From: Pseudorhodobacter sp.
Lineage (GTDB): Bacteria > Pseudomonadota > Alphaproteobacteria > Rhodobacterales > Rhodobacteraceae
Reading direction: 5' to 3'
DNA: 53,711 nucleotides
Assembly: GCA_024642045.1 (NCBI GenBank)
Contig: JAHEBX010000005.1
Span: 1 to 53,711, forward strand
Part shown: in pieces, positions 1,447 to 52,816 of the stretch
How positions within the stretch are numbered: position 1 is the first letter of the stretch
Layout of the letters: every line of letters starts with the position of its first letter
The notes under the pieces: model-generated
The model's database searches: none
The model's input: only the letters and a program-made list of their open reading frames with translations
Told to the model about the DNA's origin: nothing
Translations under genes and position numbers: made by a program

Positions 1447-2841
1447 TTAAATGTGGAGTGCGCGCCCGTATGCGTCCAGCACAGATTCGTGCATCATTTC
1501 GGACAGGGTTGGATGCGGAAAGACGGTGTTCATCAGGTCTTCCTCGGTTGTCTCAAGGCTGCGACCTATGACATAGCCTTGGATCAGCTCGGTGACTTCT
1601 GCACCGACCATGTGGGCGCCCAACAGCTCGCCGGTTTTGGCATCGAACACGGTCTTGATCATGCCCTCAGCCTCGCCCAGAGCAATCGCCTTGCCGTTGC
1701 CAATAAAGGGGAAGCGTCCAACCTTGATGTCGAACCCGGCCTCTTTGGCCTTGGCTTCAGTCATGCCCACGCTGGCAACCTGTGGCTGGCAATAGGTGCA
1801 GCCAGCAATCGAGCCGGGCTTGATCGGATGCGGGTGGCCGCCGGCGATCAGTTCAGCGACCATTACGCCCTCGTGGCTGGCCTTATGCGCAAGCCATGGC
1901 GCGCCTGCGATGTCGCCGATGGCATAGAGCCCCTCGATTCCCGTGCGGCAGAATTCATCAGTCACGACATGGGTGCGATCAATCTTTACGCCCAAGGCTT
2001 CAAGCCCGAGATTCTCGATATTGCCGACAATGCCGACAGCCGAGATCACGGTATCAAACTCCTGCGTTGTGGTGCCTTTGGCATCCTCAAGGTGAGCGGT
2101 CACCTTGCCCTTGGCGCGGTCGAGTTTCTTGACCGTGGTCTTTTCAAGGATCTTCATGCCTTGCTTGATGAAAGCCTTTTTGGCGAAGGCCGAAATTTCG
2201 GCGTCTTCGACCGGCAGCACGCGGTCCATCACTTCAACAACAGTAGTGTCGGCCCCCAACGTATTGAAGAAGCTGGCAAATTCGATACCAATCGCGCCTG
2301 AGCCGATGACGAGCAGCTTTTTCGGCATGCGTTTGGGTTGCAGCGCGTGGCGATAGGTCCAGACAAGATCACCATCCGCCTCAAGCCCCGGCAATTCACG
2401 CGCGCGCGCACCCGTGGCCAGGATGATCGACTTTGCGGTCAGCTCTTCGGTTCCCTTGTCTGTCTTGACCGTGACCTTGCCCTTGGCGGGGACGTTGGCC
2501 TCGCCCATGAACACTGTGACTTTGTTCTTTTTCATCAAGTGGCCGATGCCGCCTGACAGCTGTTTCGCCACCCCACGCGAGCGGGCGACGACCGCATTCA
2601 GGTCAAAGTCGATGCCGGCAGCCGAAAGCCCAAATTCCTTGGCGCGGTGCATCAGGTGGAACACCTCGGCCGAACGCAAAAGCGCCTTGGTCGGGATGCA
2701 ACCCCAGTTCAGGCAGATGCCGCCCAAGTTCTCGCGCTCGACAATGGCGACCTTCTGGCCAAGTTGGCTGGCGCGAATTGCCGCAACATAGCCTCCCGGA
2801 CCTGCGCCAATTACAATTACGTCGAATGTTTGAGCCGCCAT
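1447..2841 (-). CDS. lpdA: Dihydrolipoyl dehydrogenase (E3)
   Basis: 464 aa; FDVIVIGAGPGGYVAAIRASQLG, redox-active GGICLNWGCIPTKALL, C-terminal HPHPTLSE-like FPHPTLSEMMHE; SD GAGGAGGG upstream. Confidence 0.97.
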   Translation of the reverse strand: MAAQTFDVIVIGAGPGGYVAAIRASQLGQKVAIVERENLGGICLNWGCIPTKALLRSAEVFHLMHRAKEFGLSAAGIDFDLNAVVARSRGVAKQLSGGIGHLMKKNKVTVFMGEANVPAKGKVTVKTDKGTEELTAKSIILATGARARELPGLEADGDLVWTYRHALQPKRMPKKLLVIGSGAIGIEFASFFNTLGADTTVVEVMDRVLPVEDAEISAFAKKAFIKQGMKILEKTTVKKLDRAKGKVTAHLEDAKGTTTQEFDTVISAVGIVGNIENLGLEALGVKIDRTHVVTDEFCRTGIEGLYAIGDIAGAPWLAHKASHEGVMVAELIAGGHPHPIKPGSIAGCTYCQPQVASVGMTEAKAKEAGFDIKVGRFPFIGNGKAIALGEAEGMIKTVFDAKTGELLGAHMVGAEVTELIQGYVIGRSLETTEEDLMNTVFPHPTLSEMMHESVLDAYGRALHI

Positions 2842-2860: not shown

Positions 2861-2880
2861 GTAGTTTGCCATTAAACTAT
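2861..2880 (-). promoter_or_regulatory. Putative palindromic operator upstream of lpdA (ATAGTTTAATGGCAAACTAC on - strand)
   Basis: Same 20-nt layout as the site upstream of pdhA (51781-51800); 15 of 16 non-central positions identical. Confidence 0.6.
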
Positions 2881-2935
2881 TTTTTTCACCCAAGCAACAA
2901 TGGCCGCGCCGCAGGGCTATGCACTGAACGCATGG

Positions 2936-51395: not shown

Positions 51396-51698
51396 ATGAT
51401 CCATCCGCAATCCCGGCCCGCCGTCGGCGGCATGTTCTTTCTGGTGCTTGCGCTTACGCTTGGCGGATACTTCACATTTGCGGCTGTTCAGGGTGACTAC
51501 GGGATCTTTCGCCGGGTCCAGATCAAGGCCGAGGTGGCGGAACTTACGGTCGAGCGCGATCAGCTAAAGCTGGAGCTTGCCCGCTTGGATAACCTGACTC
51601 ATCGGCTGTCAGATGACTATCTCGATATTGATTTGCTGGACGAGCGCGTGCGCAATGTTCTGGGATACCTGCGTGCCGACGAAGTCGTGATCCGCTAA
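51396..51698 (+). CDS. ftsB: FtsB/DivIC-like septum formation initiator
   Basis: 100 aa; N-terminal TM, coiled coil VQIKAEVAELTVERDQLKLELARLDNLTHRLSDDYLDIDLLDERVRNVLGY; next to pdhA. Confidence 0.87.
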   Translation: MIHPQSRPAVGGMFFLVLALTLGGYFTFAAVQGDYGIFRRVQIKAEVAELTVERDQLKLELARLDNLTHRLSDDYLDIDLLDERVRNVLGYLRADEVVIR

Positions 51699-51780
51699 GT
51701 TTTGCACATTATGCATGGCAGCCATGCGGCAAAAAATTCGCAGCAATAAATTTTTGCGTTTTTTTGTCGATGCGGTATAT

Positions 51781-51800
51781 ATAGTTTAATACTGAACTAT
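51781..51800 (+). promoter_or_regulatory. Putative palindromic operator upstream of pdhA
   Basis: ATAGTTTAATACTGAACTAT, 27 nt upstream of pdhA TTG start; matches lpdA site. Confidence 0.65.
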
Positions 51801-51826: not shown

Positions 51827-52816
51827 TTGGCTGCTAAGAAAGCCCCAGAGAAATCGAATGTCTCGAAGGAAGAACTGCTAAAGTTTTACCGCGAGATGCT
51901 GATGATCCGCCGATTCGAGGAAAAAGCGGGCCAGCTTTATGGCATGGGCCTGATCGGTGGCTTTTGCCATCTTTATATCGGGCAAGAGGCCGTGGTTGTG
52001 GGTCTTGAGGCCTGCACCAAGGAAGGCGACAAGCGCATCACGTCGTATCGGGACCACGGCCATATGCTGGCCTGTGGCATGGAAGCCAATGGCGTGATGG
52101 CCGAGCTTACGGGGCGCGAGGGCGGCTATTCCAAGGGCAAGGGCGGCTCGATGCATATGTTCAGCCGTGAGAAGCATTTCTACGGCGGCCACGGTATTGT
52201 CGGCGCGCAGGTGCCGCTGGGGGCTGGTCTGGCCTTTGCCGACAAATACAAGGGCAACGACAATGTGACCTTTGCCTATTTCGGGGATGGGGCTGCAAAC
52301 CAGGGTCAGGTCTATGAGACCTACAACATGGCCGAGCTGTGGATGCTGCCAGTAATTTTTGTCATTGAAAACAACCATTACGCCATGGGCACATCGCAGG
52401 CGCGCTCGACCAAATCGGAAACGCTGTTCGGTCGCGGTCTGGCCTATGGCATTCCCGGCGAACAGGTAGACGGCATGGACGTGCTCGCGGTCAAAGAGGC
52501 CGGGGCCAAGGCTGTAGCCCATTGTCGTGCTGGCAAGGGTCCATATATTCTTGAGATGATGACCTATCGCTATCGCGGGCATTCGATGTCCGACCCGGCG
52601 AAATATCGCTCGCGCGAAGAAGTCGATAAGATGAAATCCGAAAAGGATGCCATTGAACATGTGCGCGATATGCTGCTGAACGCGGGTCTTGCTTCGGATG
52701 AGGACCTGAAGGCAATCGATAAGGCGATCAAAGAGGTCGTCAACGCCAGCGCCGAATTTGCAAAAGAAAGCCCAGAGCCCGCATTGAGCGAGCTTTGGAC
52801 CGATATTTACGCCTGA
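51827..52816 (+). CDS. pdhA: Pyruvate dehydrogenase E1 component, alpha subunit
   Basis: TTG start with [53 protein letters not shown]...NNHYAMGTS. Confidence 0.97.

Follow-up and report, generated by a model that had tools for sequence, protein, structure and literature searches.

This study identified a palindromic control site shared by two unlinked genes of the pyruvate dehydrogenase complex, a central gate of carbon metabolism, in Pseudorhodobacter sp. The window (the whole stretch of DNA analysed, 53,711 nucleotides of contig JAHEBX010000005.1) carries matching palindromes upstream of pdhA and lpdA and, judged by comparison with related genomes, these are a real, family-wide control site. 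They are quite probably operators of one transcription factor, the leading candidate being a winged-helix repressor of the MarR family that would block pdhA, lpdA and maeB, the gene of NADP malic enzyme. The features of the window that bear on this proposal are the following.

1447–2841, minus strand: lpdA, stand-alone dihydrolipoyl dehydrogenase (E3); TIGR01350, 562 bits, cut-off 409
2861–2880, minus strand: lpdA palindromic operator, ATAGTTTAATGGCAAACTAC; same sequence at the lpd gene of other genus members
2871–2897, minus strand: likely lpdA core promoter, predicted; -35 TTGCTT (2897–2892), -10 TTTAAT (2876–2871) inside the operator
51764–51790, plus strand: likely pdhA core promoter, predicted; -35 TTGTCG (51764–51769), -10 TTTAAT (51785–51790) inside the operator
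51781–51800, plus strand: pdhA palindromic operator, ATAGTTTAATACTGAACTAT; conserved in 80/80 GTDB pdhA relatives
51827–52816, plus strand: pdhA, pyruvate dehydrogenase E1 alpha, TTG start; TIGR03182, 506 bits, cut-off 394

The preliminary description of this DNA had reported near-identical motifs at the two genes, and this was borne out, with 15 of the 16 non-central bases equal and the same orientation relative to the gene. It had also recognized an inverted repeat, which is present, but its extent had been drawn too short, as the symmetry takes in the full 20 bp (16/20 positions are identical between the pdhA copy and its reverse complement). The distance from the operator end to the start codon is 26 nt at pdhA (TTG, 51827) and 19 nt at lpdA (ATG, 2841). 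The next homologues of lpdA in this genome are 43% and 31% identical. Elsewhere in the 3.49-Mb genome there is no good match to the two copies, and none at ≤2 mismatches. Within the window, three matches were seen at ≤3 mismatches, against 0.07 expected from shuffled windows; they represent two places, the palindromic pdhA site being matched on both strands. A position weight matrix (PWM) built from other species scored the two operators at 34.3 and 28.2 and the next place in the window at 7.9, while the maximum over 20 shuffles was 12.7.

The nearest PdhA sequences place the window in a Cypionkella/Pseudorhodobacter-like member of Rhodobacteraceae. Conservation was followed in a family sample of 249 Rhodobacteraceae genomes, nearly all of them the single representative of their genus. 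The consensus of 141 distinct sites is a 20-bp palindrome, ATAGTTTAAYRTTAAACTAT, a size that fits the palindromic operator of a MarR dimer (about 16–20 bp), and its GTT and AAC arms are near-invariant across 132 pdhA, 32 lpd and 28 maeB promoters. In its strict form the motif was found in 199/249 genomes, usually one to three times in each, while the reversed control pattern gave few matches. All of the GTDB relatives keep the pdhA site with ≤5 mismatches, and its spacing from the start hardly varies, while the runner-up position in each 300-bp region has 6–11 mismatches. A degenerate copy (≤6 mismatches) precedes pdhA in 24/26 MarR-positive genomes that lack a strict match. The scan of relatives proposed in the preliminary description found the palindrome kept at orthologous pdhA and lpd genes and rare elsewhere, which strongly supports its suggestion that one regulator other than PdhR is shared by E1 and E3. 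Motif matches were near control level in four AT-rich genomes (G047, G085, G089 and G212). Near-matches of the type ATTGTTTAATACCAAACGAT in G003 and G006 were rejected as chance, the G006 copy lying inside queA, as was a near-match in G286 (L347), which appears within coding sequence.

Most of the sampled family sites belong to three genes: of 71 examined, 25 were before pdhA, 24 before lpd and 16 before maeB (65/71 together). One of the other six precedes an AceE-type homodimeric E1 (TIGR00759), a protein non-homologous to PdhA; this palindrome is at 2205–2224 of L324 (G253:C31:20500-25000), and the same genome has pdhA and maeB sites in addition. In the Pseudorhodobacter genome itself, a malic enzyme gene (L365) carries a degenerate site, ATGATTTAAGGCTAAACTAG, at -19 from its start, and this weaker copy is kept in 11/14 genus members; no site was found upstream of the second malic enzyme gene. 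The GntR regulator AkgR (RSP_0981) has succinyl-CoA synthetase, succinate dehydrogenase and alpha-ketoglutarate dehydrogenase as targets (PMC4344238), and none of the remaining sampled sites appeared to belong to suc or sdh genes, a comparison made by target set.

The regulator was traced from outside the family. In genome G063, two tandem copies of the motif stand before an operon that encodes an FMN oxidoreductase of the Acg family together with a MarR-family regulator, and a class-wide search with this MarR found the acg-marR operon in many other alphaproteobacterial families, most with two palindrome copies 20–24 bp apart. A copy at ≤5 mismatches was present in 19/27 of the acg-marR upstream regions, versus 0.2% of dinucleotide shuffles. 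The stretch VT[KR]GAMTNT, presumably the DNA-recognition helix from its place in the MarR domain and from general knowledge of the family, is among the longest common to the Acg-linked and Rhodobacteraceae MarR types, which are about 44% identical overall. Where the helix differs, so does the operator: VPKTxMxHT pairs with a palindrome GTACGATwTCG, and VSRATMTNT with one like ATTCGATATC, a covariation that ties operator and MarR protein to each other. These altered-helix operons, with their other operator classes upstream of acg genes (L254, L255, L258, L275, L055 and L278), amount to a naturally occurring series of specificities in MarR-DNA recognition.

A MarR homologue with the unchanged helix VTRGAMTNT was found in 225/249 Rhodobacteraceae genomes, in nearly every genus, and the Pseudorhodobacter genome has exactly one.

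G000:C153:17390-17839 (L083 5388-5840, minus strand): MarR-family regulator

Like typical MarR-family repressors (MarR, HpaR, OhrR), this protein has MarR_2 and MarR domains above the Pfam gathering scores (PF12802, 41.2 bits, cut-off 27; PF01047, 29.1 bits, cut-off 24.6), while its matches to named NCBIfam MarR families were weak and all below cut-offs. Typical members regulate a neighbouring efflux or catabolic operon, whereas the role predicted here is in core carbon metabolism. The gene is on another contig, in keeping with the earlier remark that no candidate regulator sits beside either copy. In the Rhodobacteraceae genomes read, marR lies in a cluster of carbon-nitrogen hydrolase, marR and yihY, often with grxC; in Pseudorhodobacter it lies downstream of a gene for a carbon-nitrogen hydrolase similar to deaminated glutathione amidase and ahead of one for a YihY membrane protein. 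The acg-marR regulators of other Alphaproteobacteria share palindrome and recognition helix with the Rhodobacteraceae system but have two tandem sites before their own operon, whereas in Rhodobacteraceae single sites stand at pdhA, lpd and maeB, and the marR operon carries no palindrome of its own and is not adjacent to these targets. Autoregulation is frequent among MarR-family repressors but is no prerequisite.

The MarR-family protein is therefore put forward as a strong candidate for the regulator, with a predicted regulon that also takes in malic enzyme and, in a single genome, AceE. The sequence comparisons point to a previously unassigned MarR as the putative common switch for pyruvate dehydrogenase and malic enzyme. 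On balance it seems likely that a family-wide MarR repressor, homologous to the Acg-linked MarR, controls a pyruvate/malate-to-acetyl-CoA regulon of pdhA, lpd and maeB across Rhodobacteraceae and that, given the operator placed before the non-homologous AceE, metabolic role rather than gene ancestry is what unites this regulon.

It is unlikely that the site is bound by another transcription factor present in these genomes and that the link to MarR is a coincidence of shared operator type. In Rhodobacteraceae the MarR is tied to the sites neither by autoregulation nor by gene neighbourhood, and co-occurrence of protein and site is weak once relatedness is allowed for. Twenty-one of the 24 MarR-negative genomes (four of which were so classed by absence from the MarR listing) had no motif at all, and the pdhA promoter lacked a site in 11/14 testable MarR-negative genomes versus 3/55 MarR-positive ones (Fisher p = 6e-8). 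On the weakly supported PdhA tree, the MarR-negative genomes occur at scattered positions, and a tree-aware test of co-loss yielded three independent pairs on supported branches, leaving the sign test without power. The co-occurrence is thus partly phylogenetic, and is supporting but not decisive evidence for the link. However, another factor would need the exact 20-bp specificity of MarR operators in many other families, operators that covary with a MarR recognition helix that is unchanged in the Rhodobacteraceae protein. Exceptions to the co-occurrence were of two kinds. Three genomes (G207, G166 and G234) have the site without a MarR match, although G166 also lacks zwf and its assembly is, for that reason, probably incomplete. 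Three others (G034, G037 and G152) have the MarR, and the 110 nt tested at pdhA showed no clear site, but in G037 a pdhA site is found at -103. A PdhA-type E1 is itself missing from 9/24 MarR-negative genomes, which represent nine genera (G031, G101, G108, G120, G124, G147, G153, G174 and G203).

In the proposed mechanism, a MarR dimer would bind the 20-bp palindrome, which would lie across or right against the -10 element and the transcription start at pdhA, lpdA and maeB, and would block RNA polymerase until an effector tied to the pyruvate/acetyl-CoA node releases it, so that E1, E3 and malic enzyme would rise and fall together. Placing the effector among the metabolites of this node is a guess based on the targets. 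Binding by MarR in Rhodobacteraceae, repression and the ligand belong to this model, and the operator, its conservation, its targets, the tandem copies and the helix/operator covariation to the sequence data. The layout of the promoters is relevant here. In 32 lpd promoters, T-T-G at positions -17/-16/-15 from the operator reaches 97/94/91% conservation, the same TTG occurs 17 nt ahead of the operator in maeB promoters (T 75%, T 75%), and the pdhA promoter of the window has a TTG at the same distance. This conserved spacing at lpd and maeB implies a -10 element inside the operator, and it lends support to the earlier claim that the operator overlaps a plausible -10, the promoters themselves being predictions. 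In pdhA promoters generally, a TATA-like element borders the operator, and in the window an alternative -10, TATATA at 51776–51781, abuts the operator.

The favoured reading is repression, by a dimer that would occupy the -10/start region and obstruct polymerase, and it is the likeliest mode because the operator overlies the probable -10 region. Some MarR proteins activate, and the direction of regulation is not readable from sequence alone, but it is rather improbable that this MarR binds and activates, since the site lies over the presumptive -10/start region, mostly 16–31 nt from the start codon, a position that would occlude polymerase.

A known central-carbon regulator of Rhodobacteraceae, the LacI-family protein CceR/GapR (RSP_1663), is a very doubtful binder of the site, although it has been linked to some of the same genes. 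Imam et al. (2015) predicted that RSP_1663 controls pdhAB and malic enzyme through a loose motif, [AGT]GTT-N6-8-AAC[ACT], that formed two clusters by spacer (PMC4344238), and deletion of cceR in Paracoccus denitrificans lowers MaeB (PMC11323563). Both systems use central-carbon palindromes with GTT...AAC arms. However, the site of zwf, a core CceR target, is GTTAGCGCTAAC, with a GTT-N6-AAC arrangement and a CG centre, as in most LacI sites (PMC4052901), whereas the pdh site, GTTTAAYRTTAAAC, has GTT-N8-AAC and a variable centre (CG, TA, CA or TG). The GapR regulon of Ravcheev et al. (2014) has no pdh gene among its targets (PMC4052901), and the N8 palindrome also marks marR operons in other families. 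CceR was accordingly rejected as the binder of the pdh site on spacer, centre and target set, and the 8-nt-spacer class probably belongs to MarR rather than to CceR, which offers a way to separate two spacer classes earlier merged under CceR. Given the drop in MaeB on deletion of cceR in P. denitrificans, maeB may have a further CceR input beside that of MarR. A CceR-type site, TCGTTAGCGCTAACAA, was seen about 95 nt before zwf in the Pseudorhodobacter genome (L302, G000:C169).

The last alternative, a chance resemblance of two AT-rich promoters that share a -10, has a negligible probability: the TTTAAT half does overlap a plausible -10, but the PWM and shuffle controls contradict it, and the conservation of both half-sites, including G3, T4, T5, A14, A15 and C16, which no -10 explains, already refutes it.

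The nearest functional parallel to the proposed MarR system is E. coli PdhR, a GntR-family protein acting on pdhR-aceEF-lpdA, where one factor likewise controls E1 and E3 of pyruvate dehydrogenase at a promoter-near palindrome. Protein family and operator are different, and the targets in Rhodobacteraceae are unlinked and include malic enzyme. The E. coli PdhR operator is ATTGGTnnnACCAAT; it is missing from both the window site and the family consensus, and the two motifs had rightly been described as dissimilar. To our knowledge, the transcriptional regulators of pyruvate dehydrogenase outside the enteric PdhR lineage are mostly unknown. No MarR regulator of pyruvate dehydrogenase in Rhodobacteraceae was found in the open-licence literature, although priority is not certain. 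The family, which includes Rhodobacter/Cereibacter, Paracoccus and the roseobacters, gains a concrete and testable candidate regulator-operator pair.

Directly before pdhA, the window also contains an open reading frame of 100 aa (51396–51698) with an N-terminal hydrophobic stretch; an NCBIfam search with it returned no match, and it probably specifies an FtsB/DivIC-like septum protein.
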